Shown here: piece by piece, positions 3,073 to 42,031 of the stretch
Position numbering within the stretch: position 1 is the stretch's first letter
Layout: each line of letters starts with the position of its first letter
Source of the DNA: a virus
Reading direction: 5' to 3' (one strand)
DNA length: 52,819 bases
Virus record (IMG/VR): IMGVR_UViG_3300024520_000098
Coordinates: 1 to 52,819 of that record
Notes under the pieces: model-generated
Told to the model about the DNA's origin: nothing
Seen by the model: the letters and a program-made list of their open reading frames with translations, nothing else
Database searches by the model: none
Position numbers and translations under genes: made by a program

Positions 3073-3381
3073 ATGTTCGACCCTACTGACCTTACCGTAA
3101 AGGACGCTCGCTCTAGACTCAGCGAGCTTTCTATGGATGACCTTTCCGCCGTTATGAAGCTAGAGGTAGACGGTAAGCACCGATCATCCCTTATCGCTGA
3201 TATTGGCAGGGCTATTGACGCCCTAAAAACCGCTGAAGAGGAGGAGCCGATGGTAGAGGCTCTTGCTCCCACGCCGCCTGAGTACGAGACGATTACGCTA
3301 GAGCAATACTTCAGTCTAAAGCGCTTGCAGAAAAGAACGTGGGAGCGCGCAGCAGACGGGAGCTTTAGGAGGTTGCGATGA
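3073..3381 (+). CDS. Small protein with HeH/SAP-like helical motif
   Basis: 102 aa from ATG 3073, chosen because GGAGG at 3064-3068 sits at the right distance; an upstream TTG at 3025 in frame has no ribosome site. Residues 5-50 (DLTVKDARSRLSELSMDDL then KLEVDGKHRSSLIADI) match the helix-extended-loop-helix pattern LTV..LR..L..LS.EEL..L...E..GK.R..L found in phage head-end and DNA-binding proteins. The C-terminal half is acidic, then basic. Its last codons overlap the next start (ATGA). The role is unknown; small helical DNA- or portal-binding adapter is a guess. Confidence 0.6.
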   Translation: MFDPTDLTVKDARSRLSELSMDDLSAVMKLEVDGKHRSSLIADIGRAIDALKTAEEEEPMVEALAPTPPEYETITLEQYFSLKRLQKRTWERAADGSFRRLR

Positions 3382-6142: not shown

Positions 6143-6685
6143 CTTGTAGTAGCCTCGTCTGGTTGAAGTGATTGTGTCGTAGTTGCTGTAAACAACTTTC
6201 TGAACGTGCTTCCTATCAACGCCTACGCTTTTAATTATCTCTGCGAGCTTCGTCTCACCGTTGTCTTTTAGATAGCTAACAATAGAGCTATAGATTGATT
6301 CTTCGCTCGGCTCTTCAGAGACTTCTTCGCCGTCATGCTTGTAGGTCGTAACTCCTAGCTTGGACTTCCCTGGTTCCTTGCTGGTTCCGTCATCCACAAC
6401 CAAGCGTCCAGCCACTGCTGCTTGCCGATCTCTTTCGGCTTTACTAGAGAACTCCATTCCACGAATCTCAGGGCTTGACGTTCTTCCCCACTTTCCTCGG
6501 ATCGTAAGGTCCGCAGGAGCAGAATCGGGTGGGTATATGCGGGTGGCTCCCAGCCTTCCGCAAACAACGCATCTACAGTCTCTGAAGTCATCAGCCTTAC
6601 TTCTCATGTAGAGGTCTGGTTTTGTGTGCCAGTCAAAAAGCCTGTCACACAAATCGGAACTGCACTGCATCGGATATATAGCCAT
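6122..6685 (-). CDS. Zinc-ribbon plus winged-helix protein coupled to portal
   Basis: 187 aa. The N-terminus (MAIYPMQCSSDLCDRLFDW, then CRCVVCGRLG) is a zinc ribbon of the FmdB type, with Cys pairs near 8/13 and 40/43. After a hydrophilic linker, residues 128-185 form a helix-turn-helix/winged-helix (IYSSIVSYLKDNGETKLAEI, VDRKHVQKVVYSNYD, TSTRRGYYKL). The ATG overlaps the portal stop by one base (TAATG), so the two are cotranslated. Its 3' end overlaps terL in the convergent direction. A DNA-binding factor next to terminase and portal could mark the packaging site or regulate head genes; this is inference. Confidence 0.65.
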   Translation of the reverse strand: MAIYPMQCSSDLCDRLFDWHTKPDLYMRSKADDFRDCRCVVCGRLGATRIYPPDSAPADLTIRGKWGRTSSPEIRGMEFSSKAERDRQAAVAGRLVVDDGTSKEPGKSKLGVTTYKHDGEEVSEEPSEESIYSSIVSYLKDNGETKLAEIIKSVGVDRKHVQKVVYSNYDTITSTRRGYYKLLPPLT

Positions 6686-8679
6686 TAAAACCCACCTCTT
6701 GTCTGTAAATGTTGAATGAGTCCAGCGGTGCCCGATTGGGCGTTGCCAGACTGCTCACCTCTTGGCCCTGTCCCAGCAAGGCTTTCTCCATTCTGAGGGT
6801 TGAGCCCCATGCTTTCAACCCCTTCTGGCCCAACTTGTCCTTCGGCGGTTGGTTGTGCTTGTAGACCAGCGCCTCCCATTGCAGCCCCCTGTAGTTGAGA
6901 CAGCGGCCCAACAAGAGCCTGTCTGTCTTGACGCCACACGCTAAAGGCTTGGTCCATGAAGTTTTGAATGGAGTCGGGGGGTAGGATTCCTCCCTGAACC
7001 AACGGCATCATGGTTCCCATAACCTGCTGCATGGTTTGCAGTAGACCAAGGAATGCCTGCTGTTCCTCCGCTGGATTAACCGGAAGGGTTGAGCCAGCCT
7101 GCACATTCACGTCGTAGTACCCCTGAATGTCTGACGAAGTGAACGCGATGAACTCATCCTCTCCATCTGAGCCGTTGATTCTCAGGTATCTCGTTTCGTC
7201 CCAGTATTGGCGAATGATGGAGAGAATCTTTCTGGATATGTGAGAGACAAACCTCTCGGTTGCCTCAAGGCGTACCCCGACTCGGCCCTGAGTTGCGGCA
7301 GAGGCGATAGCTACTTCTGTAGCAGTGGTTCCCTTTCGGCTTGCCCCTCCTCGCTGGAACGAATCGACTCCGCTGATTTCGTACATCATCTTTTGGAGAC
7401 CGCTTATAACCATAGATGTCGTTGAGGGAGGCGGTGCTTCGGGAAGAATCATAAGAGCGTCTTGGATTCTTGCTACACCAGCGGGAATCTCGGCAACCTC
7501 CATGTCTTCTTCAGACTCAAGGAGTGCTGTTAGCTGCCCGCCCTCAAGAACCCCAGGCATGGCGACAAACTTGCGTCGAGAGGAGAGCCGGTGGTGCCTA
7601 AGAACGTAAGCCCACTCGTCGTTTAGCCTGTTGGATATTCCTCGAATGGAGGATAGGTCTGATACATGTGTGCTGTAGAAGGAGTCGGGGACATCAATAA
7701 ACTTGAGTGTCTCGTATGGGTAGCCTTTCATCTCTATCGGATCATCAATGTGTCGAAGGACGGAATCCATAGAGTCGCCAGACCCTGGGTTCTTGGTGAG
7801 CCACATTATCCGTCGCCGCATCCCATTCTCTGAGTTAGCCCAATACCTAAGCTCGTAGATAACTACATAATCAGGAGCAATCTCGGGCTCTCCGGTGATG
7901 TTGTCTTCTGTTGAGCCAAGCGATTCTGGGACAGCATCTGACAGCCAAGAGTCAGGCTTTATGTCTTCTGGCACATCGAATCGGTCGTCTGCGCGAAGGT
8001 CGTCTAGTCGGACAACAAGTCTTTCAGCGACCCAAGGGCATTGGTTTAGGTCTGTATATCCTGGGGGTACAATTAGGTTCCACGGAGCTACTCGCGTAAG
8101 CATTGGATTGTCGTTTGGCCCCTCGTCAAAAGAAAGCTGTTCGTTCCCAAGGAAGTCTCTAAGTCTTCGTTGCTGAGCCTTGCTTATGGGGTCTTTGCCC
8201 TCACCCGGCATTTCCTGCTCTGGCCCGGTGTCGTAATCCTCTTGGGGGAAGAACGCATCGCTCGGGTCGTATCCAACCTTCCCGAATCCAAGTCCGAACA
8301 AGAGGGCGTCTAAGACAATCTTTCTAGTTGTCTGGTTCGCACCTATCTCATTCCAGATGTAGTTCAGGGCTCCCTGGGCAATCCTTGCGGAATCTTTATC
8401 TCCCGGCCTTCTCGGCTTCACATAGATATATGGATTAGCGGAGATAACCCCTGGAAGAATTGTGTTTGCGTTAGACAGGAGGAAGTTGAACTTAACCTCT
8501 CCCTCGCTGTCTCCGTAGAAATCAAGGCCCCCGCTTTGTGACGGGATTGCTGAGTAGTCCTGCTGCACCGCTCTCCAGTACGGAAGATGGTTCTCTTCTA
8601 AAACTTGCTCTGAAGAGTCAATCTTTTGGAGCCATAGCTCTACTGATTCGTGGTCAATTTCTATTTTAGAGTCAGTCAT
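6685..8679 (-). CDS. Portal protein
   Basis: 664 aa. Dodecameric channel at one capsid vertex for DNA entry and exit. Typical portal segments: HLPYWRAVQQDYSAIPSQ, FNFLLSNANTILPGVISANP followed by YIYVKPRR, LFGLGFGKVGYDP, RVAPWNLIVPPGYTDLNQCP, ISNRLNDEWAYVLRHHRLSS and GGASRKGTTATEVA. The C-terminus (about 560-664) is Gln/Gly-rich, as in many podovirus portals. It lies on the strand opposite to terminase, scaffold and capsid genes, an unusual inversion inside a head module. Shine-Dalgarno is weak (AAGG about 12 bases upstream). It starts 76 bases from the divergent scaffold gene. Confidence 0.9.
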   Translation of the reverse strand: MTDSKIEIDHESVELWLQKIDSSEQVLEENHLPYWRAVQQDYSAIPSQSGGLDFYGDSEGEVKFNFLLSNANTILPGVISANPYIYVKPRRPGDKDSARIAQGALNYIWNEIGANQTTRKIVLDALLFGLGFGKVGYDPSDAFFPQEDYDTGPEQEMPGEGKDPISKAQQRRLRDFLGNEQLSFDEGPNDNPMLTRVAPWNLIVPPGYTDLNQCPWVAERLVVRLDDLRADDRFDVPEDIKPDSWLSDAVPESLGSTEDNITGEPEIAPDYVVIYELRYWANSENGMRRRIMWLTKNPGSGDSMDSVLRHIDDPIEMKGYPYETLKFIDVPDSFYSTHVSDLSSIRGISNRLNDEWAYVLRHHRLSSRRKFVAMPGVLEGGQLTALLESEEDMEVAEIPAGVARIQDALMILPEAPPPSTTSMVISGLQKMMYEISGVDSFQRGGASRKGTTATEVAIASAATQGRVGVRLEATERFVSHISRKILSIIRQYWDETRYLRINGSDGEDEFIAFTSSDIQGYYDVNVQAGSTLPVNPAEEQQAFLGLLQTMQQVMGTMMPLVQGGILPPDSIQNFMDQAFSVWRQDRQALVGPLSQLQGAAMGGAGLQAQPTAEGQVGPEGVESMGLNPQNGESLAGTGPRGEQSGNAQSGTAGLIQHLQTRGGF

Positions 8680-10676: not shown

Positions 10677-11213
10677 ATGTCTGGATTTATGCACGGAGGC
10701 TCAGCCCTCACCCTAGATATTGGTTGCCGTAACGACACTGGCGCTGCCTGCTCTGGTGGCGACATTGTGCAGATTGACTTCCTCCAGCTTGTTGGTGGCG
10801 TCAATGTGGCTCAGGACGGGCTTGGGGCTATCACCCCTCCCGCTCTTGGCGCACCAGCCCTCAACGGCTGGGCGTTCGCCGCAGCCGACCTTGGCTCTGG
10901 CTACATGTCAGTGACAGGCGCTGTCATTGCTCCGCAAGGCCATACAATTATGGCTACCGAAGAAATGACAATCCGCGTGGCTGGCGTTGCCGAGGTTTCG
11001 GTACTTGGTCCCGGTGGCGGCTTAGCCATTGGCGACCTTCTTGATATTAGCCCTGGCGCAAGCAACCTTGTTGATTCTGCGCTGAGCGGTGGCAACCTGG
11101 GAACGGCTACTCCTGCCACGGCAGGACTTCTCCGAGGGGTTGCCCTGGAGACTGTTGCTGCTGGCGTAACCGCCGTTATCTCTGTCTGGCTTAAGCCTTT
11201 CGGTGGTATCTAA
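10677..11213 (+). CDS. Probable capsid cement/decoration protein
   Basis: 178 aa, ATG with AGGAGG at 10663-10668. Low in charge, rich in Gly, Ala, Val and Leu, consistent with an all-beta protein. The order ACSGGDIVQI, TEEMTIRVAGVAEVSV, GLAIGDLLDISPGASN, ATAGLLRGVALETVAAGVTA is the pattern of DUF2190-like capsid proteins, which bind the outside of the shell. Directly after the major capsid gene, as expected. The family assignment is by pattern, so moderate confidence. Confidence 0.65.
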   Translation: MSGFMHGGSALTLDIGCRNDTGAACSGGDIVQIDFLQLVGGVNVAQDGLGAITPPALGAPALNGWAFAAADLGSGYMSVTGAVIAPQGHTIMATEEMTIRVAGVAEVSVLGPGGGLAIGDLLDISPGASNLVDSALSGGNLGTATPATAGLLRGVALETVAAGVTAVISVWLKPFGGI

Positions 11214-11227
11214 AAACTAACGTGTGA

Positions 11228-11250
11228 GCCGGGGGGCTTTGCTCCCCGGC
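11228..11250 (+). terminator. GC-rich stem-loop after the cement gene
   Basis: GCCGGGGGGC (11228-11237), loop TTT, GCTCCCCGGC (11241-11250): ten pairs, one of them G-U when read as plus-strand RNA. No U-run follows, so it is more likely an intercistronic mRNA-stabilising or processing hairpin, or a leaky terminator that keeps capsid expression above that of tail genes, than a full terminator. It lies 23 bases before the next ATG. Confidence 0.6.
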
Positions 11251-11273
11251 AATCACAGCTAGGAGAATTGAAA

Positions 11274-11735
11274 ATGGCTGTAGCAGTACACGTTGGTCGA
11301 GTAGCAAAGGAGTACACTCCTTACGGCTATTCGATTATGGAAGACGTTTCAGGAGCTTTCCGGTTTACCGCCGGTGCTGGCGGTGCGACCGTCTTTTTGC
11401 CTATGTTTGACGATGCAGATGCTCGTATTGAGGCTATCAGTATTATCAGCGAAGGCGGTTATAATCAGGGAGCAGATAACGCTGTTAATAGCTGGGTTAT
11501 ACGGCTTGCAAGCTTTGACGCAGCAGGGGCCGCTACAACGCATGCCCTGGTGATGGACACAAGCACGGTAGTGACCGCAGCACCCCAGATTGGCGCTAAT
11601 GTTAGGGTTTCCGCGACCGCCTCAACCCCGGTGATTGCAGCGGGAAGCACGCTTGCAATTATTGTGGGTGAGAATGGAACCGCTAACGGAAACATTGACG
11701 CGACTGTTTTGGTCCGCGTTCGTCGCAAGGCATAG
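11274..11735 (+). CDS. Structural protein, unknown, likely beta-sandwich
   Basis: 153 aa from ATG 11274 (AGGAGA at 11261-11266); a TTG at 11268 in frame lies too close to that site. Sequence is Ala/Val/Thr/Gly-rich with alternating hydrophobic residues, and ends in NIDATVLVRVRRKA. Such a composition is usual for head-decoration or collar proteins. Placed between the cement protein and the connector. I recognise no specific family. Confidence 0.6.
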   Translation: MAVAVHVGRVAKEYTPYGYSIMEDVSGAFRFTAGAGGATVFLPMFDDADARIEAISIISEGGYNQGADNAVNSWVIRLASFDAAGAATTHALVMDTSTVVTAAPQIGANVRVSATASTPVIAAGSTLAIIVGENGTANGNIDATVLVRVRRKA

Positions 11736-21373: not shown

Positions 21374-24300
21374 ATGGCTGAAGAAGACTTCTCGTGGCTC
21401 TATGACAAGCCTACGCCGACCCCCCCTCCAGCGGTCCCTGTTGCTCAGGCTCGTGCCGAGGCTATGGAAGAGGCGATCCCAGAAGAGGACTTCTCCTGGC
21501 TCTATGGCGATGAGGCTCCTGTAGACGCTGTTCCTGTAGACGCTGTTCCAGAAGAGGAACCTCAAGAGGCTGTTGCAGGCCCCCCTAGCGATGAGGGCGG
21601 GGAGGATTTCTCCTGGCTTTATGGCGACACGGCTGGGCCTCCTATTCAAGCGCCTCCTGCTGAAGAGGACTTTGAAGCCCCGCCAGACCCGTCGCCCTTC
21701 CCTGCACAGCCACTAAGTGATTCTGAGCTTGATAGGGCCTTTGGGCTAAGCGCCGATGCTGGCCTAAGCATGGAAGGCATAATTCCAGGCTTTAGCGCTG
21801 GCGCTACGGCAGCGGAGTCCTTGCTTCCAGAGAACCTTCCAGAGGAGGTCCCGTCCACTATTTCGGGAGACAGGAAGGGAAGGCTTAAGGGTGATGACCT
21901 TCGCCGCGAGTGGGCGAAGATGCAGTACATCTATAAGAAGTCTATTACTCCAGACAGGCGGCTAGAGGCTGTCGGAGAGTTTGTTCATAAGTGGAGACCA
22001 GAGCTTGCTGAACGCGCTGGTTGGTCCCCAGACGGGTATCAAGAGCCAGAGGGATTGTTCGGGCTCTTCGACTGGATTGACAAGCTTGGACCTCGCCCCG
22101 TTCGCGCCCTGGCTAGGTCACTCAGAGAGCTTGAAGTTCAGAGAGCGGCGGCAGAGATTTCTGGCACAGAGCCTCCGTCTTTTGATGACGCGCTGAAAGC
22201 TATTTCTAGGAAGTACGAGGAGGACAAGGGCTACCCCGAGCATGGCGAGAGCCTTCTTAGGGATGCGCTTCTTTACTTTGGTGGCTCTGACGACCCAGAG
22301 GAAATCCTTAGCCAAGAGGCGGCTAAGAACAGGGGAGAGAGTTGGGCCGATAAAGCTTTGGATTCCTCCGCAGAGGAGCTTACTAGGTTTGGCTATGAGA
22401 TTGCCAAGCACCCCATCATCTCAGGAGCACTTGGCGGCGCTGCCGGTCTCTCTGGCTTTGGTCTTTTTGGCCCCATTGCAGCGGCTGCTGGTGGCATCGC
22501 TGGCGGCATTGGTGGGGCGTACTTTGGTGCTGGGGTTGATAGCGACGTATACGACACCGCAAAGGAAGAGGCGGTAGCGGCTGGCTCAGAGGGCGGGCAC
22601 TTCGCCCAGGGCCTCATCGCCTTGATGCTCTTTGACCCCCTTAACTTTATAAGTTTGGGTAAGTTCAGAGGAGCTACTGACTCTGCCAAAGACCTTATTG
22701 AGAAGGGGATGGGAGTCACGCGGAAGGGGGATGAGGCAGTTTCCGCTGAAGCTATCTCCTACCAGCGGGCCGGAAGGCAGCAGTTCGTACAAGAACTCCT
22801 AGAGGAGGCCCCAGAAAGCGTAGAGGCTGCAACGATAGGTCGCCTCTCCAATCAGCTTGATAGGGCAGAGGAGGCTCTGGACAGTGCTACGAGGTCGGTG
22901 AGGCTTAGGGAGGGTCTTTCGGAGTCTGCCGCAGCCCGAGGCGCTGACGACCTAGATGTGTTTGACGATGTTCGCTCTGCTTCTCAAGAGAATGCAGTAG
23001 TGGCTCAAGAGGCTTTTGATTCTATAAGGCAACAGTTTGACAATGCAGTGGAGTCGTTCACTGGCGACCTCCCTGCTGTAGCGAGAACAGCAGATCAGGC
23101 TCAGCTTATTGCAAAGAGTGACCTGCAAAGGGCGGCTGTTGCTGCTTTCAACATAGGGGCAGAGCTTAGGGGCTCCTTTGCTCCAGCACTTCTGGCGAAG
23201 CTTAGGGAAAAGGCCGTCCTCCTTGGGGTCGGAACAGATGAGGCGCAGAAGGCGTGGCAGGCTGGCCTGAGAGCGGCAGACGACCAGCGGCTTATCTTGG
23301 TGGGCTTTGAGGATGTCGCTGGAACAGCAATAGGGACTATGAAGGCGAAGCCAATCCTCAAGGATGTGGGCGCTGCTCGCGTGTATGAGATGGCGAAGAG
23401 GGGGGAGCTTGGTGTTGACGCGAGAGTTGCCGCAGAGCGACCCCAGTACAACGCTCTTGAGAAGATCATTGATAAGAGAAGCGGCAAGTCTTTTAAGGAG
23501 CTTTCGGACGAACTTACCGATGTCAGCTATCGCCCGAAGGAGGGCGTGGGCAGATTCGTAGACCCTACGTACTTGATCAGAAAGACTCTGGAGAGCACAA
23601 AGGGTGCTGGCGAGCTACAGGCTATTCGGGGAGAGGCTCAAAACATAAAGAGGCTGCTCAGAGATCCAAAGGTAAAGGGCGCTGCTCGCTCTGGATTAAA
23701 GAAGCGCCTTAAAGACCTTCAAGAGATGAGCAAGCAAGCCTCTTCAAAGAAGGGCCTTAGCAGAGAGTTTAAGCTCCTTCAGGAGGAGCGGCTAGTAACC
23801 GACCTCAACCCGATCTCCATGACCATAACCAGAAAGATACTGGACATGGCTCCGTGGCTTGACCCGCCTCGACAGTTTCTTCAAACCATCGGCAGGGGGA
23901 CTTTAAGCAGGACAGGGCAGCGACCACAGTTCTACACAAAGACAGGGCCTGAAGGGAAAAGGGTTCTTCGTGACAAGAACGAGATGGTTTACCCGCCAGC
24001 CCACTACCACGTCGAATTGCTTGAGCAGGCAAGGCATAGAGCTAGGTCTTTAGGCAAGGTTATGTGGCCTTCCGTTAGGGCCAAGATCCTCACCATCACT
24101 GAAGACGAGGAGGTACTTCGGGTTGCCAGGGAGTTTGTGGAGCTAGGCTATGCAGCACCACTAAAGGGAGTTAAGGGCGCTGAGCAACTCGTAGCAGCGA
24201 TAACCATTAGAGAATTGAATAGGGTTCTCAACCGCATCACTCAAGAGGGGACTCAGGGAACCGCTAGGGGCGACGGCTATCAGATGCTTAACGAGGAGGA

Positions 24301-27300
24301 AACCAAGCGGGCTATCAATGCCATAGACACTCTTGCAAGTACTCATCCAGAGATGGACACGTCTAACCTCAGAGCAGCGATAGAGGAGTACGGAGAGACT
24401 ACCGCTGGCATCTTGAGAGAGAGGGAGAATGAGGCCCTTTGGGCTCCCGGTAGCGACCTCGATAACGCAAGAAGGGACCGCCTCAACGAGACTCGCCTTG
24501 AGCTAGCCGTGTTTGAAGGCGCGTATAACAACATTGTTACCGAGAAGTTCCTCATGGGCGCAGAGCTTGAGGCTGCTGAGAGGGCAGAGCGTCTTCGCCC
24601 AGAGCTTGAAAGGCTTCAGTCAGAGGTTCATCGGATTAACGAGTTGCTTGGTAGCAAGGAAGTTACCTCTGAGCAGGCTATGGATGACCTCATTGAGACG
24701 CTGCTCCGCGAGGCAGAGGACATGCCTGGGGTCAATCTCAACCGTGATGAGCTTATCCCCATCGCTATACCGAGGAGTCCAGAGTACCTAGAGGCTGCCA
24801 AGGGCCTGGAGTCTGAGGCGCTAGTCGCTCACAAGGTCGTCCTTCGCGACCAGATTATCGAGATGTTTGACGAGACTGCTGCCAACACCGTCATGGACGT
24901 GATGGATAGGTGGGCTCAGATAGCCTATGAGCAGGGGAAGGTTACTCGCAAGGACGAGTGGTATCAGCAGGTCACTGGCATCCATGACGTGAAGACAGCG
25001 TTCTCTGAGGCTATGGGTCCAGGGATGCTCTTTCACGAGTACGAAGCAGCCCCAATCTTCTACTCCCAGCTTTATCGGTCTTTGGAAAAGGTTGGAGTCC
25101 CAGAAAAGGTTTCCCTAAATACGCTCGTAGACAACCTTGTTAGCTCTGGCGTTTCCCAGTCAACAATAGATGAACTGGACCTGACCGGCTGGGTACAGAG
25201 AAAGCTTGACGACATTGGAGAGTCCTTCGATGAGTCTTACCGAGGACCCCCAGAGAAGCAGGCTGGAATTAAAGAGCGCTCCCTTGAGAAGGCGACTGTT
25301 CGTCCTATCGATATAAAGAATTACATAGAGTCAACCGGACATGAGTCTGGAGACATCCTGAACAGGCTTGTGGGCGGCGATGTTTCCCTAAAAGACCTAA
25401 GCAAAATAGTTAAGAGCCTTGGCGTTGAGGTAAAGAACACAGGGCTTGCAGAGCTTTTGGTTGGCGAGATTAAATTACGTCTTGGCCGAAAGCAGTTGGA
25501 CGATTTTGAAGACCTTATTGCGAATAGCAAGTACGGGCTGTCAGACGCACTTAAATCTCCTCTTGTTCAGGACATAAAGTTCACGAGGGAGGAACTGCTT
25601 AGCTGGGTCAACACGTTCAGGACGCAGATTGGCGACGATGTTCGCGGCTATTTCTCCGACAAGGGCGACCTGAGCAGGCGGCTTGACCCTACCGAAGACC
25701 TTGTTCCCTGGAACGATCTTGCTGAAGACGTGTTGGGTAGACCGCTCTTTGGGGATGACTTTATTGGCGGTCACTCTCCTCGCCTTGATGAGTACATGGA
25801 GGCCCATCCAGTTCAGCGTCATGAGGAGTTGCTTGATCCGACTACGCGAATCCCAGAGGAGGACTTTCGGGTAACTGACGGTGATGCCTATCTATTCACG
25901 ATAGAAAATCTCACCGCAGACCCTGCGACGGGCAGGCTACGGGCTGAGATTGAGTTTACTGCCGAGACTCCCTATGGCGCTCAGGAGTTTGTGATTGAAA
26001 GGGGTATCGACCCAGAGGACTTCGGTGTTTCAGAAGAACTATTTCGTAGCTACTCTAAGCACTACGACGAGTCGGGGAAAAGGACCGACGAGAGCCTTAT
26101 GGGGGCTGAAAAGCGCGACGTAGCTTTCCCAGAGACAGACCCGTTCGACATTGGCCTCAACCTAAACACGCCGGGACAGGAGAAGTACACAGAGTGGCTT
26201 CTCATCAACAAGGGGGAGAGCGCAGAGGGGGTCACTAGCTCTGGCTCTGTTGCTCACTTTGGTGACACGAAGGACATCATTACCCATGTGCGGTTTGGCG
26301 TTCGCAAGGGGCCAGACGGCAAGCAATGGATGCACATCGAGGAGATTCAGTCTGACCTAGCCCAGGGGCTGAATAAGGCGAAGCGAGGCGATGCGGCGAC
26401 AAAGCTAACGGAAGACCTTTATGGCTTGGGAGACTCGGGGCGCACCGTCTCTGGCGAAAAGGCTCTTTGGGAGAGGCTAGCGTTCGACAGAGGGGTGGAA
26501 GCGGCAGACGAAATAGCGGCCATCGCTGAAGACACTATTTCCTGGCTAAACGAAGCCAAGGCGGCTCTTGGCAGCGCAGCCTTTAAGAGGATTGTTGATG
26601 AACTGCCTGAGGAGGCTCTTTGGTCTGAGTTCAACGGATACGACCCAAGAACTATGTCTGCCGGGAATCTCGACGGGCTTGCTCTTGAAGACTTCGGCAA
26701 GCTAGTCGATGCTCTTGTGTCATCAAAGGGTGGTATTGGCGAGACTGCTAACACCGGAAGACAGGCTGGAATATCGGCAGACACCAAGCTCCCCTATGAG
26801 AAGGGATGGATAGACCTTGCTATCAAGCGACTGGTTGCCTTTGCCGTAGACGGGGCAGACGAGCCCATTCATGGCATCTCTTGGACGACAGGAGACGTTC
26901 AGGACACCCGGTACATGGGGCTTGCTAAGGACGCCCTGATAGGCCAGTACGACACTGCTATGCCCGCTAGGTTTAGAAGCCTGTACGGAAAAGATACCGG
27001 GGGAATCGAGCTAAAGGACTTCTCGTTTAAGACAAGCGATACGGTGGTTGACGACCTTGATGACGCTGGCGATGTAAACCAAAGCCTTTCTCGCTTTCTT
27101 GACGAGCTTGGCGAAAGAGACACGGGGTCACTAGCTCTGGACTTCGGAAGCGGTGTTATTTGGTACATCTACAAGAGCCTTGGCAAGGAAGGCCGCAAGC
27201 GCTACGGGGTTGCAGAGATAGAGACTACTGCCTTTAAGGAGTTTGGCGCAGACATTCGCGAGACAAGGCAGGCGCTTCTGGACTCAAAGCTTGCAAAGAT

Positions 27301-30300
27301 TCCTGTAAAGGACATCGACTTCGGCTCAGAGGTTCACGGCTTTGAGATAACTCCAAAGCTTAAAGAGCATGTGCGCAAGGGTCAGGCGCTTCACCACCTG
27401 AAGGACAAGGTTGTTCGCGGGGCAATGAAGCTTGAGGAGGAGGGTCGCGTCTCCATCCACGCCTTTGAGTCTGCAACCGTAGGCACCCTGGTTCACGAGA
27501 TGGGCCATGTGCTGCGTCGCAACCTCCAAGAGGGCGAGCTAAAGACCGTAAAGGACTGGCTTGTTGGCGAATCGTCTAGGCTCAGCAAGCTCCCGAGGGA
27601 GGAGCTAAGCAAGGACATAGCCCACCTCTTTGAGGCAGAGGGAGTCGTTAGGGTTGTAGACAACAAGGGCAACTTCACCAGAGAGGGCGAGGAGATTTTC
27701 GCTCGTGGCTTTGAGCGCTACCTCATGGGCGACCCGCCAAGAGGGGCTTCTGACGATGTTCTTAAGCTCTTTGAGAAGATGAAGAAGTGGCTTACCGACA
27801 TCTACAAGGCTGTAACTGGCAACGACGTTGAGGTGTCCCAAGAGATCAGGCAAGTCTTCGATAGGTACATTGCTGGCGGGGAGCAGCCCAAGGTTGCGGC
27901 CAAGGAGAACTGGCAGATTAAGCGCGTCGATGTGGGAGCAAAGCCAGGGCAGACGCTAGAGGAAGCTCTGGAGCTACACCGGGGTCAGGTCGAGGCCGCG
28001 ATAAACAGGGGAGACGACGTTCCTGCTGAAGTCCTTATGGACTACGAAGACCTCCTTCTCGACATCGCCAACAAGGCAATCAATCGCGGCAAGGGCGCGA
28101 CGAAGGATGCAGGCAAGCGCCTTAACAAGGCAGCTAAAGAGATGGGGAAGATTGCTGATGAGGGTGTTGAGGCTCCAGAACCAAAGAGACAGCGCACCAG
28201 GTACGACGGTCTAACACCGGAAGAGGCTTTTGAGCTGTATCAGAAAAATGTTTCTTCTCTTGAAGCGAGCTTCTTTGCAAAAAGAGAAAAGATCAAAGAC
28301 AAGAGAAAGCAAGAGATACTCAGTAGGCAGTTTCTTGATGAGAGGGTGAAGCTCGATGATGAGTATGACCTCGCAAAGGAGGTTGTTGATAAAGGGGCAG
28401 CCCGTGGTCGCAGGAAAAGGGCTGGCAACCTAGACATAGCCAGGGAGAATGTAAGGAAGGCTCTCAGTGTAATCAGAAGGGCCTCCAAGGATAAGAAGTT
28501 CTCAACGGCAGCAAAGCAACTAGAGGCAGTCAAGGCTCTTAAGGCGGGGGAAGAGCTTGCCGTCAAGGCTGGAAGCCGCGAGAGACACCTTCTTGAGGCT
28601 CTAAAGTCCAAGTACGAAGACCAGACAGGAGAGCTTCTTCAGACAATAGACTCTTCTAGGGTAGAGGCTAGGTCGAACGCACGTAGAGCGGCATACATGC
28701 TTACGAGGGGTGTCCTTCGTGGAGAGCAAACCGTGGCTCCCGGCCAGGGAAGGGCTCAGCTTGAGCAGGCTATCGACCTAGTGTTGAGTCAGTTCGGTAG
28801 GGGCGCTGACCCGCTTGACGTGCTTCAGAAGGGTGTCACTAAGGGGCTTGTTCAGCGAGCGACTATGGCTCTTCCAGAACGCATCATCGCTGTAGAGAAA
28901 AGGATAAGCGACCTTGAGATAAAGATTGATGAGAAGGCAACGAAGGGCTTAAAGAGGCAGCTTGCTAATCAGAAAAGAAAGCTTGCTACCCTTCGTGAGC
29001 AGGCTCAGCCAATCAAAGATCAGATCGTTGTAGGCCAAGAGGACCAAGTAACAGGGCTTGGCAGGGCCGTTAAGGAGCTTCGCGCTCAAGAGAAGGCAAC
29101 CAACAGAGTTCTGGGAGGGGTTGAACCCACCGTAAAGGCTGTGACTGACCAGCTTTCTGACATCGAGGGAAGCCTTGACCGCCTCGCTAAGTTTGCCGAA
29201 AGCATGGACTATGACTTCAGGCTACCGGCAGACATCAGGCGCGAGATTTACAGCGCCAAGCAGTCGTATCTGAACAACATCGAAGCGCACAGAATAAATT
29301 ACGACGGCGCGATGCAGGCATTTAGGGAGGCAGAAACCGGCAGGGCAATGCTGAACATGACCAATGATGAGATGACTCGCGTGAAGAGGCTCGTCAAGGA
29401 CCCCAATCTTCATGACCTGACTGCTGGCAAGGAGAAGCTGCTGAAGAAGGCTAGGGCTGAGACAACTAGGCTCTCCGCTTCAATTGCTCGCTTGAAAGAT
29501 TCCGGTAAGGATACCTCTAAGCAAGAAGCTGCTCTTAATTCAGCGCGTCGTCGGGTTGACATCCTAGAAGATGAGGGGATGACCAAGGAGGTCATCGAAG
29601 CAGCTAAGTTAATTAAGAACTTCTTTGACGACTGGCTTGAGAAGCTCAAGGAGAACGGCGTCCTTGATAAGGGCTTTGACGAGGAAGCGTTCTTCGACCG
29701 GGTAGATATTGCTGGCTACATTCCTCACGTAACAACTGTCACGACGCGAAGGAAGATCGAAGCCCTGAGAGGGAAGGGGATGCTCCCGAGAAGGGGAGAG
29801 CCTGGGTTCGCCAAGAAGCGGAAGATAGCTGGAACGATTGATGAGATCAACGCCCAAGCGAGAACCAGCGTGGCTGAGTCAATCGCCTACCACCTTGCCT
29901 CGACCCATCAGTTTGGCGATGAAGCGGTGGAGGCTTCCAAGCTAGCGGGGGACCAGCTTAAAGAGGTGCTTAAGAAGAATGGCATTGAGTGGACTAAGCT
30001 TATTGATGAGATCAAGTCAGACGCTGGTCTGGATGACATATTTGAGTTCTTTGAGACTGACCCGATGGTTCTCATGGAGCGATACAACGACTCTGCCTCC
30101 CAGCTTGTTGCCGATAACAAGTTCATCGAGGACATACTTGAGCTATTCCCGTTGGGTCGCGAGCTTGGCGACATGTACGGCGAGTTTGCCGATGCACGAG
30201 CCCTGTCTCTTGGGTACGAGCGGCTCTCTTCTGTAGAGCAGTTGCAGGTTGTGATGGGCAAGAAGCTGCCCCCACAGCTTCGTAACTTTGAGTCCCTAAT

Positions 30301-32167
30301 CAAGCAGCAGTTGGCTGAAGGGGTGCCTCTTAATGAGATTGTCGATGACCTCATTGCGAAGGGGGTAAGCGCTGAGCTTATCTCTCCTGACATCGTTCAG
30401 GGGTTTGCCGCAAAGCAGTGGTACGTGCCCTCCTCTGTGGCTGAGTACCTTCGCTACATGAATAAGCCAGACAAGTTCTTGGGGATGTCTGCTGACCATA
30501 AGTTTGTTCAAGTCTTCGACGGAATCCAGTCTTGGATGAAGATGATGGCAACCATCGCGGCTCATGCCCACCTTGGTCGCAACTGGATTGGAAACGTCAT
30601 CTCTCCGATTCAGGAGATGGGCCTTGGGGCCTTGGACCCAGAGTCTCAGTTTGCCGCCATAATGATATGGGGATCGTGGAGCGATAAGCATTTAGGCAAG
30701 ACGCTTGAGTTTGCTGGCAGGAAGATGACCATCAAGGAGTGGCGTGAGTTCTGGCAGGTGCGTGGTGTTTACGACTCTCCCGTTTCTTCCGAGTTCATCA
30801 AGGAGACGATGGGGGTCCAGGGCCTTCAGGAGGTTCCCACCATAGAGAGGCTTGCTAAGCAGCTTGGTGGTACTGGAGCGGGAGCGGCTCTTGGGGGGGT
30901 TGTGGCTGGCCCAGCGGGGGCCTTTATAGGGGGCCTTGCTGGAGCCTTCATCACGGCTAAGCCCTTTAGAAACAGGGCATGGACTAGCTTTGTCGATGAC
31001 ATTGGCAGCGCTGTTGAGGCTGGCCCAAAGAGGGCTATACCTGCTATCGGTCAACATGTTTCTGGCGTAGGCACTGGCGCTGTCATTGGGTCTGCGATTG
31101 CTCCTGGGGTTGGCACTGCAATTGGCGCTGCAATTGGTGGGCTATCCTTCCCTGATTACATCAAGATGATGTCGGGTCTTAACCAATCCATTGAAGCTCA
31201 GGCTCGCGTAAGCATGGCTATGGCGCTTTTGAAGAAGGGTGAAACTCCCGATGCTGCTCTTGCTGCGGTTAACAGGGCGCTGAGAAACTATTCAGACCTA
31301 AACCCTTGGGAGCGTAGCGTTATGCGCCGGGTGTTCTTCTTCTACACATGGGACGCTGGCAACATCAGGTTCCAACTTCGTCAGCTTCGCCGGAAGCCGA
31401 GAGAAGCAAAGGTCGTAGCGTCCTTTGGCAACGGTGTTTACAAGGGGCAGTTCTCTGAGGAGGAGATCAATGCGCTTCCAGAGCACCTGCGGTGGAGGGT
31501 TATCTTCAGGACTGGAGCTACCAAGCTAATATCCCTCTCTGGTCTTCCTCATGAGCCAGCTATTGAAATACTTAGTCGTGGAAAGCACGGAATCCCAACA
31601 GGTCTTGTCTCTAGGATTAGGCCAGACGTGCTTACCTTCATTGAGTGGGCTTTCGGTGGCGGCAAGAGCACCTACTACGGGAAGCAGTGGGAGCAGATAA
31701 ACAATGTTCGTTCTCTGAAGAACGCCCCTCCCCTTCTTAAAGCAATGGTTGGTTTCCCGGAGGACGGGGAGACGCTTCGCGTTCCTATCTATAAGAACGG
31801 AAAAAAGACTGGGAAATACAGGACAGAATATAGGGCCAAAAACCCAAGGCTTATGTACTTAATGCAAAGGGTTCCTGGCTACCGAGTCATAAACGAGTAC
31901 AACAAAATTGTTACTGACACGTTTCAAAGCTTTGCAATGGACCAGGGTGACGATACTCTTGCGGCCACTGGCTCAGAGAGGTTCTGGGCATTTGCCTTTG
32001 GGCAGAAGCCGACAACGATTGACTGGGACGGTCAGATTCAATACATGGCATACCAACTTGAACAGCGTCTTCTGGACATAGTTGACAACGAGAACTCAAG
32101 AGCGGTTAAGGAAATAAAGGCTCTTAGTCCCACATGGACAGGACCAGCAGAACCAGTGGCCCAATAA
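21374..32167 (+). CDS. Giant ejection / polyvalent protein, 3597 aa
   Basis: A fifth of the window. Visible in order: three DFSWLY repeats at 5-10, 39-44 and 78-83 in an acidic, Pro-rich leader; a glycine-zipper hydrophobic region near 350-385; long coiled coils at 480-900; EEIQSDLAQGLNKA near 1655 and KGWIDLAIKRLVAFA near 1810, a pair recurrent in giant phage virion proteins; a zincin motif VHEMGHVLRR with HEMGH at 2041-2045; coiled coils at 2230-2650; HLGRNWIGNVISP near 3065; two glycine zippers near 3165-3195 and 3230-3260; and SDLNPWERSVMRRVFFFYTW near 3306-3325, also typical of such proteins. It fits the 'polyvalent protein' class injected with DNA to act on the host. The metallopeptidase may cleave host or capsid proteins. 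No RNA-polymerase motif was found. Confidence 0.8.
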   Translation: MAEEDFSWLYDKPTPTPPPAVPVAQARAEAMEEAIPEEDFSWLYGDEAPVDAVPVDAVPEEEPQEAVAGPPSDEGGEDFSWLYGDTAGPPIQAPPAEEDFEAPPDPSPFPAQPLSDSELDRAFGLSADAGLSMEGIIPGFSAGATAAESLLPENLPEEVPSTISGDRKGRLKGDDLRREWAKMQYIYKKSITPDRRLEAVGEFVHKWRPELAERAGWSPDGYQEPEGLFGLFDWIDKLGPRPVRALARSLRELEVQRAAAEISGTEPPSFDDALKAISRKYEEDKGYPEHGESLLRDALLYFGGSDDPEEILSQEAAKNRGESWADKALDSSAEELTRFGYEIAKHPIISGALGGAAGLSGFGLFGPIAAAAGGIAGGIGGAYFGAGVDSDVYDTAKEEAVAAGSEGGHFAQGLIALMLFDPLNFISLGKFRGATDSAKDLIEKGMGVTRKGDEAVSAEAISYQRAGRQQFVQELLEEAPESVEAATIGRLSNQLDRAEEALDSATRSVRLREGLSESAAARGADDLDVFDDVRSASQENAVVAQEAFDSIRQQFDNAVESFTGDLPAVARTADQAQLIAKSDLQRAAVAAFNIGAELRGSFAPALLAKLREKAVLLGVGTDEAQKAWQAGLRAADDQRLILVGFEDVAGTAIGTMKAKPILKDVGAARVYEMAKRGELGVDARVAAERPQYNALEKIIDKRSGKSFKELSDELTDVSYRPKEGVGRFVDPTYLIRKTLESTKGAGELQAIRGEAQNIKRLLRDPKVKGAARSGLKKRLKDLQEMSKQASSKKGLSREFKLLQEERLVTDLNPISMTITRKILDMAPWLDPPRQFLQTIGRGTLSRTGQRPQFYTKTGPEGKRVLRDKNEMVYPPAHYHVELLEQARHRARSLGKVMWPSVRAKILTITEDEEVLRVAREFVELGYAAPLKGVKGAEQLVAAITIRELNRVLNRITQEGTQGTARGDGYQMLNEEETKRAINAIDTLASTHPEMDTSNLRAAIEEYGETTAGILRERENEALWAPGSDLDNARRDRLNETRLELAVFEGAYNNIVTEKFLMGAELEAAERAERLRPELERLQSEVHRINELLGSKEVTSEQAMDDLIETLLREAEDMPGVNLNRDELIPIAIPRSPEYLEAAKGLESEALVAHKVVLRDQIIEMFDETAANTVMDVMDRWAQIAYEQGKVTRKDEWYQQVTGIHDVKTAFSEAMGPGMLFHEYEAAPIFYSQLYRSLEKVGVPEKVSLNTLVDNLVSSGVSQSTIDELDLTGWVQRKLDDIGESFDESYRGPPEKQAGIKERSLEKATVRPIDIKNYIESTGHESGDILNRLVGGDVSLKDLSKIVKSLGVEVKNTGLAELLVGEIKLRLGRKQLDDFEDLIANSKYGLSDALKSPLVQDIKFTREELLSWVNTFRTQIGDDVRGYFSDKGDLSRRLDPTEDLVPWNDLAEDVLGRPLFGDDFIGGHSPRLDEYMEAHPVQRHEELLDPTTRIPEEDFRVTDGDAYLFTIENLTADPATGRLRAEIEFTAETPYGAQEFVIERGIDPEDFGVSEELFRSYSKHYDESGKRTDESLMGAEKRDVAFPETDPFDIGLNLNTPGQEKYTEWLLINKGESAEGVTSSGSVAHFGDTKDIITHVRFGVRKGPDGKQWMHIEEIQSDLAQGLNKAKRGDAATKLTEDLYGLGDSGRTVSGEKALWERLAFDRGVEAADEIAAIAEDTISWLNEAKAALGSAAFKRIVDELPEEALWSEFNGYDPRTMSAGNLDGLALEDFGKLVDALVSSKGGIGETANTGRQAGISADTKLPYEKGWIDLAIKRLVAFAVDGADEPIHGISWTTGDVQDTRYMGLAKDALIGQYDTAMPARFRSLYGKDTGGIELKDFSFKTSDTVVDDLDDAGDVNQSLSRFLDELGERDTGSLALDFGSGVIWYIYKSLGKEGRKRYGVAEIETTAFKEFGADIRETRQALLDSKLAKIPVKDIDFGSEVHGFEITPKLKEHVRKGQALHHLKDKVVRGAMKLEEEGRVSIHAFESATVGTLVHEMGHVLRRNLQEGELKTVKDWLVGESSRLSKLPREELSKDIAHLFEAEGVVRVVDNKGNFTREGEEIFARGFERYLMGDPPRGASDDVLKLFEKMKKWLTDIYKAVTGNDVEVSQEIRQVFDRYIAGGEQPKVAAKENWQIKRVDVGAKPGQTLEEALELHRGQVEAAINRGDDVPAEVLMDYEDLLLDIANKAINRGKGATKDAGKRLNKAAKEMGKIADEGVEAPEPKRQRTRYDGLTPEEAFELYQKNVSSLEASFFAKREKIKDKRKQEILSRQFLDERVKLDDEYDLAKEVVDKGAARGRRKRAGNLDIARENVRKALSVIRRASKDKKFSTAAKQLEAVKALKAGEELAVKAGSRERHLLEALKSKYEDQTGELLQTIDSSRVEARSNARRAAYMLTRGVLRGEQTVAPGQGRAQLEQAIDLVLSQFGRGADPLDVLQKGVTKGLVQRATMALPERIIAVEKRISDLEIKIDEKATKGLKRQLANQKRKLATLREQAQPIKDQIVVGQEDQVTGLGRAVKELRAQEKATNRVLGGVEPTVKAVTDQLSDIEGSLDRLAKFAESMDYDFRLPADIRREIYSAKQSYLNNIEAHRINYDGAMQAFREAETGRAMLNMTNDEMTRVKRLVKDPNLHDLTAGKEKLLKKARAETTRLSASIARLKDSGKDTSKQEAALNSARRRVDILEDEGMTKEVIEAAKLIKNFFDDWLEKLKENGVLDKGFDEEAFFDRVDIAGYIPHVTTVTTRRKIEALRGKGMLPRRGEPGFAKKRKIAGTIDEINAQARTSVAESIAYHLASTHQFGDEAVEASKLAGDQLKEVLKKNGIEWTKLIDEIKSDAGLDDIFEFFETDPMVLMERYNDSASQLVADNKFIEDILELFPLGRELGDMYGEFADARALSLGYERLSSVEQLQVVMGKKLPPQLRNFESLIKQQLAEGVPLNEIVDDLIAKGVSAELISPDIVQGFAAKQWYVPSSVAEYLRYMNKPDKFLGMSADHKFVQVFDGIQSWMKMMATIAAHAHLGRNWIGNVISPIQEMGLGALDPESQFAAIMIWGSWSDKHLGKTLEFAGRKMTIKEWREFWQVRGVYDSPVSSEFIKETMGVQGLQEVPTIERLAKQLGGTGAGAALGGVVAGPAGAFIGGLAGAFITAKPFRNRAWTSFVDDIGSAVEAGPKRAIPAIGQHVSGVGTGAVIGSAIAPGVGTAIGAAIGGLSFPDYIKMMSGLNQSIEAQARVSMAMALLKKGETPDAALAAVNRALRNYSDLNPWERSVMRRVFFFYTWDAGNIRFQLRQLRRKPREAKVVASFGNGVYKGQFSEEEINALPEHLRWRVIFRTGATKLISLSGLPHEPAIEILSRGKHGIPTGLVSRIRPDVLTFIEWAFGGGKSTYYGKQWEQINNVRSLKNAPPLLKAMVGFPEDGETLRVPIYKNGKKTGKYRTEYRAKNPRLMYLMQRVPGYRVINEYNKIVTDTFQSFAMDQGDDTLAATGSERFWAFAFGQKPTTIDWDGQIQYMAYQLEQRLLDIVDNENSRAVKEIKALSPTWTGPAEPVAQ

Positions 32168-36777: not shown

Positions 36778-36912
36778 ATGGCTGTCAAAGGAAAGAAGTG
36801 CGTGGTTAAGCGAAAGTCATCCTCAAAGAAGGGTGCTCGCAGACAGCCCGTTAGCAAGATGCGAACGGCAAGGAAGAAGAGTAAGCCCGGTGGGGCGAAA
36901 GGTCCGTACTGA
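36778..36912 (+). CDS. Lysine/arginine-rich 44-aa protein
   Basis: Starts MAVKGKKCVVKRKSSSKKG and ends KPGGAKGPY; about 40 percent Lys plus Arg. ATG two bases after the previous stop, TGA overlapping the next ATG (TGATG). First of three consecutive small basic proteins. Such peptides may condense DNA or coat RNA, like protamine-type proteins of some phages; function is inferred from composition only. Confidence 0.55.
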   Translation: MAVKGKKCVVKRKSSSKKGARRQPVSKMRTARKKSKPGGAKGPY

Positions 36913-37142
36913 TGAAATCACATCGCCCAGACGAAGCGAAGAAGCACATGAAGGAAGAGGGCCATAAAGACCGGGAGAATGCGCACCATTCTGGAGTAAA
37001 GATCGTCATCAATGTGGGCGGTCCTCCGATGCCGATGGCTCTGCCTATTGGAAAGCCGCCGAGGAAGCTGCTTAAGAAGAGGCTGAAGAAGCTTAGTGCT
37101 AAGGGACCGATGGAAGCTGCTCTTAGCGAGGCCTGCTGCTAA
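36912..37142 (+). CDS. Small basic protein
   Basis: 76 aa, overlapping both neighbours by one base. His/Lys-rich N-terminus (HRPDEAKKHMKEEGHKDREN), then a hydrophobic VKIVINVGGPPMPM segment and a basic tail (PRKLLKKRLKKLS). Ends in CC. No family recognised. Shares lysine richness and strict coupling with the genes on both sides. Confidence 0.55.
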   Translation: MKSHRPDEAKKHMKEEGHKDRENAHHSGVKIVINVGGPPMPMALPIGKPPRKLLKKRLKKLSAKGPMEAALSEACC

Positions 37143-37291
37143 TGCCGGTCAAGCCCTGCAAGTCTAAGGGCAAGCGGGGCCACAAGTACGGCACCAAGGG
37201 CAAGTGCTACACAGGGAAGAGCAGCAAGGGCAAAGCATCAAGACAGGGGCGAGCTATCAAGGCGTCTCAGGGAAAGAGAAGCGCCAAGTAG
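37142..37291 (+). CDS. Lysine-rich 49-aa protein
   Basis: Starts MPVKPCKSKGKRGHKYGTKG, contains KCYTGKSSKGKASRQGR and ends KRSAK. About a third lysine, with Gly and Ser: a protamine or H1-tail composition. ATG overlaps the previous stop. Last gene of the plus-strand arm, directly before the structured non-coding region. Either virion DNA-binding peptide or RNA-binding partner of that region; both are inference. Confidence 0.55.
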   Translation: MPVKPCKSKGKRGHKYGTKGKCYTGKSSKGKASRQGRAIKASQGKRSAK

Positions 37292-37697
37292 CCGCTTGAT
37301 TAGAAATTGTGCAGTGGGTACGCTCCCCACTGATCTCCAAGGGATGCGTCTCCCCACAATCAGCGCATCTCTTGCCTATGGCCCCCGTCCAGTACCTCAA
37401 CCTCCTGGGCGGGCGGCCTATTGGGCAGAGCACACCCCCATCCAGCGACCCCTTACTGCTGAGCAGCGGATGGACGCTTACATGCTGGACAGTTTCAGCT
37501 TAGCTACCCTGGTCGCATGCAGGCAGCGTCACCTTTTCGGTTCATCACTAAGCAGACGGGGGTATATCTGCTTGACCCACAGCGATGCTGCGTGATTCAC
37601 CGAGCCTAAAATTGAAGAATCTTCTTCTCCCTGTACAGCACCCTGCTCTTGTTTCGCCCTATGAGGCTGGGGCCACTCGGAGCAGGGGTATGGCGGG

Positions 37698-37747
37698 GAC
37701 CGTAGCAGGGAGGGGTTGCGCTTGGCAACGGTCTAGGTTATTTTTCC
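37698..37747 (+). terminator. Possible terminator inside the structured region
   Basis: GACC at 37698-37701 pairs with GGTC at 37730-37733 outside the GTTGC/GCAAC hairpin, and TTATTTTT follows at 37739-37746. The U-run comes six bases late for a classic terminator, so this may end plus-strand late transcription only partly. Confidence 0.35.
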
Positions 37748-37810
37748 ACCGTGTTGCGATGAGGCTCGCTGGCATCCTTCTTCCTTTGCCAGCTTGACGC
37801 AACACGTTTG

Positions 37811-37859
37811 TACAGCAACAACTCCCCCTCACACCTGACCGTGGGGGGGAGTTGCTGTA
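37811..37859. terminator. 15-pair hairpin between convergent arms
   Basis: TACAGCAA-CA-ACTCCCCC (37811-37828) pairs with GGGGGAGTTGCTGTA (37845-37859) with a two-base bulge. It lies at the meeting point of the plus arm and the minus arm, next to the minus-strand stop at 37860, so it can act in both directions. No U-run on either side. TACAGCA also occurs at 37634-37640, offering the 3' arm an alternative partner. Confidence 0.6.
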
Positions 37860-38300
37860 TCAGGGCCTCGATATAAGAAGAGCAACTACTGCAATCATCG
37901 CAGCGCCAGTTCCAACGCTCACACCCAGGAAGAACATCTTTGGCTGTGCGTTAAGAGCGGCCTTCGTCTGGTACTCCTGCGCTGCAAGAATCTCCTGGGC
38001 TAGCTCTCTATCGCTTTCCCTGCCCTTGTAGGAGACATCGAGAGCAAGCTTTGTCTGGGTGAGGAGGTCTGACTCATCGAGCAGAGCCTCAAAGTCATTG
38101 GGAGGCACCAGCATTCCTACGCAGTCAGGGTCGATACCGGGTCCGATGGGCTGCGTATTCACGCACCACTCATCGTTGTTCGCCGGAATCTCTATGTCTG
38201 GAATCTCTACGCGAGGAAAGGGTTCCTCGAACAATGCTTGAGATGCTGGAACATGAGCGCACCCGCCAAGCAGAATCAGTAAGGGAATCATCTTATTCAT
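37860..38300 (-). CDS. Unimolecular spanin candidate (lipoprotein with C-terminal membrane helix)
   Basis: 146 aa from ATG 38300, which overlaps the previous stop (ATGA); a longer start at 38318 would spoil the signal. Lipoprotein signal MNKMIPLLILLGGC with lipobox cysteine at 14, then a Pro/Asp-rich periplasmic part, a helical region (residues 70-115) and a C-terminal membrane helix (KMFFLGVSVGTGAAMIAVVA at 121-140). An outer-membrane lipid anchor and an inner-membrane helix in one chain of about 130-150 aa define u-spanins, which fuse the two membranes at the end of lysis. Unusual: it sits at the tail of the early minus-strand arm, not next to the endolysin. Confidence 0.65.
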   Translation of the reverse strand: MNKMIPLLILLGGCAHVPASQALFEEPFPRVEIPDIEIPANNDEWCVNTQPIGPGIDPDCVGMLVPPNDFEALLDESDLLTQTKLALDVSYKGRESDRELAQEILAAQEYQTKAALNAQPKMFFLGVSVGTGAAMIAVVALLISRP

Positions 38301-38500
38301 AGCCGTCTGGCCTTCCACATTTGGTTAAAGCTAAAGCTAGCAAGCGGTCTCTTGGATGTCCTTATCCAGTTCTCGTATCCGCACTCGCACTCTTGTAGCC
38401 AGAACGCAGGTAGCTTAAGAGATTTCCTAAACTCTTCGTCTGTCTTATCAGTAGGGTTGTGCATCTTCCAAGGACCATACTTATGGCGGTGCTTGCTCAT
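38297..38500 (-). CDS. Small unknown protein
   Basis: 67 aa. Ends four bases into the spanin candidate and begins within the stop of the upstream gene (GGATGA), where GGAGG directly abuts the ATG. Contains WLQECECGYENWIRTS, a possible half zinc site with two cysteines, and YGPWKMHNP. Family unknown. Confidence 0.5.
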   Translation of the reverse strand: MSKHRHKYGPWKMHNPTDKTDEEFRKSLKLPAFWLQECECGYENWIRTSKRPLASFSFNQMWKARRL

Positions 38501-41711: not shown

Positions 41712-42031
41712 CACTTCTCCTTGTTGACGAAGACAGGTATCCCGTACCTCGTTCGCTTCTGACTCACAGCCTGCCTGCTGACACCTAGCTTGGTAGCAAG
41801 GTCGCCGTCAGGCATCATTCCCATTAACTCCCAGCCCCCACTCTGAGGCGTGAGTCCATCAGGGCGACCACTCCTCCTAACCACAACACCCCACTCCCTC
41901 AACCTTCCAGAGAGGGTTGATATTGATATGCCAAAGTCCTTGGCTATAGATACGAGGCCCTCCCCACTCTCGTATCTCATAGCCATGCTTTGCTTTTCCT
42001 CTTCCTTAAACGTTCGCCTTCGGTTGCTCAT
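41711..42031 (-). CDS. Double helix-turn-helix regulator
   Basis: 106 aa, ATGA overlap with the DUF932 gene. Two helix-turn-helix segments: SIAKDFGISISTLSGRLREW (residues 28-47) and LATKLGVSRQAVSQKRTRYG (about 78-97), joined by a basic linker (GVVVRRSGRPDG). N-terminus MSNRRRTFKEEEKQ is basic. Candidate repressor of the repeated early promoters, or terminase-type DNA-binder; target not shown. Confidence 0.65.
   Translation of the reverse strand: MSNRRRTFKEEEKQSMAMRYESGEGLVSIAKDFGISISTLSGRLREWGVVVRRSGRPDGLTPQSGGWELMGMMPDGDLATKLGVSRQAVSQKRTRYGIPVFVNKEK

Follow-up and report, generated by a model that had tools for sequence, protein, structure and literature searches.

The two gene arms of this uncultivated phage's genome, analysed as a single viral record of 52,819 nucleotides (the window), converge on a gap of 568 bases at 37292-37859. 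The gap is the exact interval between the stop codon of the rightward arm's last open reading frame (ORF; 37289-37291) and that of the leftward ORF facing it (37860-37862), and it is the sole large convergent gap in the record as judged by simple gene tiling; gaps of similar size at 3381, 43167 and 49960 overlap ORFs that such tiling skips. Holin- and spanin-like genes precede three small ORFs at the end of the rightward arm. The features at the junction are:

36778 to 37291, plus strand: three small ORFs closing the rightward arm, of which the first and third are lysine-rich (ORF list and tiling)
37292 to 37859, unstranded: noncoding gap where the arms converge, a candidate for a shared 3′ untranslated region or an orphan RNA (flanking stops, no coding signal, fold z -5.1 plus and -4.8 minus)
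37860 to 38318, minus strand: small lipoprotein-like gene that closes the leftward arm, its signal peptide ending LLGGC (sequence comparison; relatives' copies lie on the opposite strand)

Elsewhere in this 53-kb genome, an ORF of 3597 aa occupies 21374-32167 (+), and a portal-like protein (phrog_1216, E 2.5e-19) is encoded at 6685-8679 on the minus strand of an otherwise rightward structural arm, between the terminase and the major head protein.

The gap is noncoding and structured. An initial annotation had described about 570 bases without a convincing gene, and we found that all ORFs inside the gap, on both strands, score negatively against the phage's own codon usage (per-codon log scores of -0.25 to -0.02, versus mostly +0.10 to +0.26 for neighbouring genes). 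None of these ORFs matched a Pfam family, the longest had no match among phage records, and the frames of the gap gave nothing beyond short weak matches to the proteins of relatives. The comparison with dinucleotide shuffles that the initial annotation had proposed placed the gap below the shuffles on both strands, with -243.6 kcal/mol on the plus strand (z -5.1, 0 of 100 shuffles as low) and -240.7 kcal/mol on its complement (z -4.8).

The 93 segments of the same length in the record had a mean z of -0.98 (sd 1.45), and the gap ranked second among them by a hair; first was a 569-nt tile at 10812-11380, mostly coding and with one intergenic hairpin, at z about -5.0. Because such a value also occurs elsewhere in this genome in a tile that is mostly coding, a z of about -5 in a single sequence is insufficient to call a large RNA, and the gap serves as a warning against doing so. 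A strong hairpin between two structural genes (11213-11268, GCCGGGGGGCTTTGCTCCCCGGC) falls in the tiles at 10812 and 11201, both with fold z about -5, and two 200-nt tiles in or beside coding sequence, 801-1000 and 41801-42000, are as extreme as the gap (z -5.7 and -5.0).

Structure within the gap is uneven and lies mostly at the right end. On the plus strand, the two right-end hairpins (37747-37860) gave z -7.2, the left-end hairpins in series (37292-37436) z -4.4, and 37292-37745 as a whole z -3.15; the middle (37437-37697), where a three-way junction had been claimed, was no better than shuffles at z -1.05. Perfect stems of six or more pairs numbered 23 against 11.6 expected from shuffles, and those of nine or more pairs 3 against 0.14, and the excess was weak without the last 115 bases (15 versus 9.2 expected, a count that 10 of 200 shuffles reached). 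The perfect stems of 5-15 pairs named in the initial annotation are present where it placed them, but the longest has 10 pairs rather than 15; of its overall picture, the lack of coding and the fold below shuffles stand, but the even, ornate architecture does not. The individual helices are:

37312 to 37332, unstranded: hairpin 1, CAGTGGG/CCCACTG, pairing probability 0.72
37340 to 37372, plus strand: hairpin 2, AGGGATGCG/CGCATCTCT, with a G-U pair on the plus strand, pairing probability 0.76
37374 to 37430, unstranded: hairpin 3, CCGTCCAG/CTGGGCGG within an outer helix, pairing probability 0.997
37537 to 37603, unstranded: helix with a symmetric TC/TC internal loop, three-way junction disfavoured (helices 0.83-0.85, junction arms 0.25 and 0.13)
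37641 to 37687, unstranded: hairpin CCCTGCTC/GAGCAGGG, pairing probability 0.998
37750 to 37806, unstranded: two-layer hairpin, CGTGTTGCG and CGCAACACG around GCTGGCA/TGCCAGC, z -3.9 plus and -3.4 minus
37811 to 37859, unstranded: strongest hairpin, abutting the leftward gene's stop codon, without a T tract on either strand, z -6.8 plus and -5.6 minus

Several helices of the gap thus exceed a pairing probability of 0.7, and the hairpins at 37385-37412, 37641-37687, 37750-37806 and 37811-37859 are well determined. The two-layer stem around GCTGGCA/TGCCAGC was correctly recognised as such. The proposed three-way junction survives only in its closing helix with the TC/TC loop; its arms pair poorly, and the junction fold lies 1.7 kcal/mol above a simpler local fold. 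Neither of two further proposals was borne out: the stem of an ATTGTG/CACAAT pseudoknot had a pairing probability of 0.006, in a method that does not model pseudoknots, and a switch of partners between TACAGCA and the terminal hairpin had one of 0.000. A CsrA sponge, an idea raised by minus-strand loops containing GGA, was dropped because the GGA counts equalled those of shuffles.

Folding cannot decide which strand is transcribed, since the minus strand folds better in 37437-37745 (z -3.65 versus -2.39) and the plus strand better at both ends. The suggested expression from the late operon's end reflects position only; the gap's plus-strand purine content (0.456) resembles that of the leftward arm (0.446) instead of the rightward arm (0.53-0.61). 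No promoter-like site was found in a scan of the gap.

Searches with the holin, the leftward arm's ATPase-like gene and the lipoprotein gave 113 viral loci, many of them sharing contigs; none held a sequence similar to the gap, and 37 whole records of relatives gave only matches of 13-22 bases. The short matches, 22 nt in L113 and 17 nt in L012, go no further, and the latter lies within a RuvC-like coding ORF. No homologue of the gap was recovered by distant BLAST of phages and plasmids or by degenerate patterns drawn from the gap's own translations across IMG/VR and 84,980 genomes, and covariance models of both gap ends, run over 68 sources, recovered only the window itself. An 18-base pattern matched four times in the genomes, versus about seven matches estimated by chance, and none of them extends. 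We accordingly use the word orphan for the gap as it stands within the collections searched, at the sensitivity used.

ROOL RNAs are similar to the gap in size, and the initial annotation had likened the gap to a large RNA of the GOLLD or ROOL kind. The gap shares with ROOL that it is phage-borne, noncoding and rich in helices, and with GOLLD, one member of which comes from a marine sample, that it is phage-borne, noncoding and structured, but it is shorter than the 800+ nt of many GOLLD members. Covariance-model searches of Rfam were run at gathering and permissive thresholds, with relatives searched as well; no family reached the gathering cut-off in the gap, and the ROOL and GOLLD models were unmatched even permissively, over the gap at E up to 5 and over the window at E up to 3. 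ROOL and GOLLD often lie near tRNA islands in phages and prophages, a setting that is usual, not universal, and they are marked by covarying helices and pseudoknots and by homo-oligomeric cages (PMC12286853). The 52.8-kb window holds no tRNA or tmRNA, and the conserved pseudoknots or kissing loops of ROOL and the conserved 3′ domain of GOLLD have no demonstrated counterpart in the gap, which is known from one sequence. Since the models are unmatched and tRNAs are lacking, the gap cannot be filed under ROOL or GOLLD; the want of a homologue and of a promoter-like site, the ambiguous strand and an interior that is in part no better than shuffles likewise leave the likeness unsupported.

One may postulate instead that this phage lineage makes a large, free-standing noncoding RNA, some 450-570 nt long, whose class has yet to be described. 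We regard this as unlikely, if a serious contender: 568 nt without coding signal in a compact phage genome, a fold that none of the shuffles equals (z -5.1, 0/100) and several helices above 0.7 would suit such an RNA, but no homologue appeared in IMG/VR, the 84,980 genomes or the phage and plasmid records at the sensitivity used, the strand is ambiguous, no promoter-like site was found and the middle folds no better than shuffles on the plus strand. More doubtful is a fuller version, in which this discrete, undescribed RNA of about 450-570 nt would have hairpins in series as its 5′ domain and two hairpins as its 3′ domain, be made at the arm junction and act in late infection. If the gap does make a discrete RNA, it would add another large noncoding phage RNA to a group with unknown roles.

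The right-hand part of the gap (37703-37856) might alternatively be a small regulatory RNA homologous to the Rhizobiales sRNA Atu_C7 (RF02501), which we consider highly improbable. The layout of the gap's 3′ 150 bases is alike, and the model aligns over its full length at 23.8 bits, with the same succession of outer helix, asymmetric internal loop, pyrimidine-looped inner hairpin and end hairpin; this score is far under the gathering score of 45, however, the E value of 0.16 over the whole window is level with that of a snoRNA match (0.14), weak matches (E up to 10) also occur in 10 of 14 control genomes, and the gap's end hairpin has no T tract, unlike the family consensus. The similarity is near chance once the number of families and the window length are counted.

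The same junction in relatives is much shorter. In 12 related records whose arms converge, the gap never exceeds 337 bases and is mostly about 100 or less (-26 to 102), all lengths being approximate and derived from simple gene tiling: 102 bases in L002 and L004, 93 in L011, 72 in L015, 229 in L008, 337 in L010, 50 in L113 and 2-3 in L013 and L012, with overlapping genes in L003, L111 and L114. The gaps of L002, L004, L011 and L015 hold a hairpin that sits between A and T tracts (AAAGCGGCGTTCCC..GGGAGCGTCGTTTTCTTTT in L015), giving them the look of a two-direction terminator, and the junction of L008 has strong hairpins too. The gap studied here resembles these convergent terminators in its position between the arms and its strong, self-complementary hairpin on both strands, but it lacks the A and T tracts, has 568 bases rather than 72-102, and carries extra hairpins.

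A factor-independent terminator has a G+C-rich hairpin at a gene end and a T tract directly after it. The hairpin at 37811-37859, beside the leftward stop, is such a G+C-rich hairpin, and no T tract follows either it or the hairpin at 37750-37806 on either strand; a terminator scan returned nothing within the gap. The missing T tracts weaken the case for termination and, with the empty scan, imply that transcripts would stop there only with the help of Rho or some other factor, or that the hairpins merely protect transcript ends.

In L003, L027, L111 and L114, homologues of the lipoprotein (44-50% identity) follow the spanin-like gene in the rightward arm, and L110 agrees in having the lipoprotein gene opposite the ATPase-like gene. 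Set beside these homologues, the copy at 37860-38318 (-) represents a local inversion or move. In relatives, protein genes separate the arm junction from the spanin-like or lipoprotein genes. Both this arrangement and the strand of the lipoprotein gene would fit a gap that consists of gene remnants or is a scar of recombination, dating from the strand move, with structure incidental save for the end hairpins, and so would a purine content matching the leftward arm (0.456 versus 0.446) and not the rightward arm (0.53-0.61). We think this origin improbable, as the frames match relatives' proteins only by short weak matches and no families, and stems of nine or more pairs are too numerous for plain decay. 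A simple reading, which we only propose, is that the lipoprotein gene and the gap moved together.

Because no relative of the gap came up in any search, calling it an unusual shared end of two operons is sounder than declaring a new giant RNA proven. We lean modestly towards a lineage-specific shared 3′ untranslated region where both transcripts meet and end. The rightward (late) and leftward transcripts would meet and both stop in a lineage-specific noncoding spacer, and the hairpins at 37750-37859, which form in RNA of either strand because they are self-complementary, may cap or stop these transcripts and prevent read-through from one arm into the other, in place of the short two-way terminator present at the junction in some relatives. 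The remaining 450 bases would be moderately structured filler, perhaps acquired when the lipoprotein gene switched strand; both the end-capping or terminating role of the right-hand hairpins and this origin of the gap are what we infer. The shared 3′ end is consistent with the exact fit of the gap between two convergent stops, with the hairpin at 37811-37859 adjoining the leftward stop, and with relatives that have terminator-like hairpins in shorter gaps at the same junction and the lipoprotein gene in the other arm. Against it, a two-way terminator takes about 50 bases, not 568, and the hairpins at 37312-37430 (z -4.4 on the plus strand for 37292-37436) are left unexplained. If the gap is a shared operon end, a 40-base terminator gave way in this lineage to a structured spacer that exceeds it more than 10 times in length.

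In two of the related records, L006 and L010, about 900 extra bases lie between the arms relative to their kin L004 and L002, likely marking an insertion site of the leftward arm near the junction.
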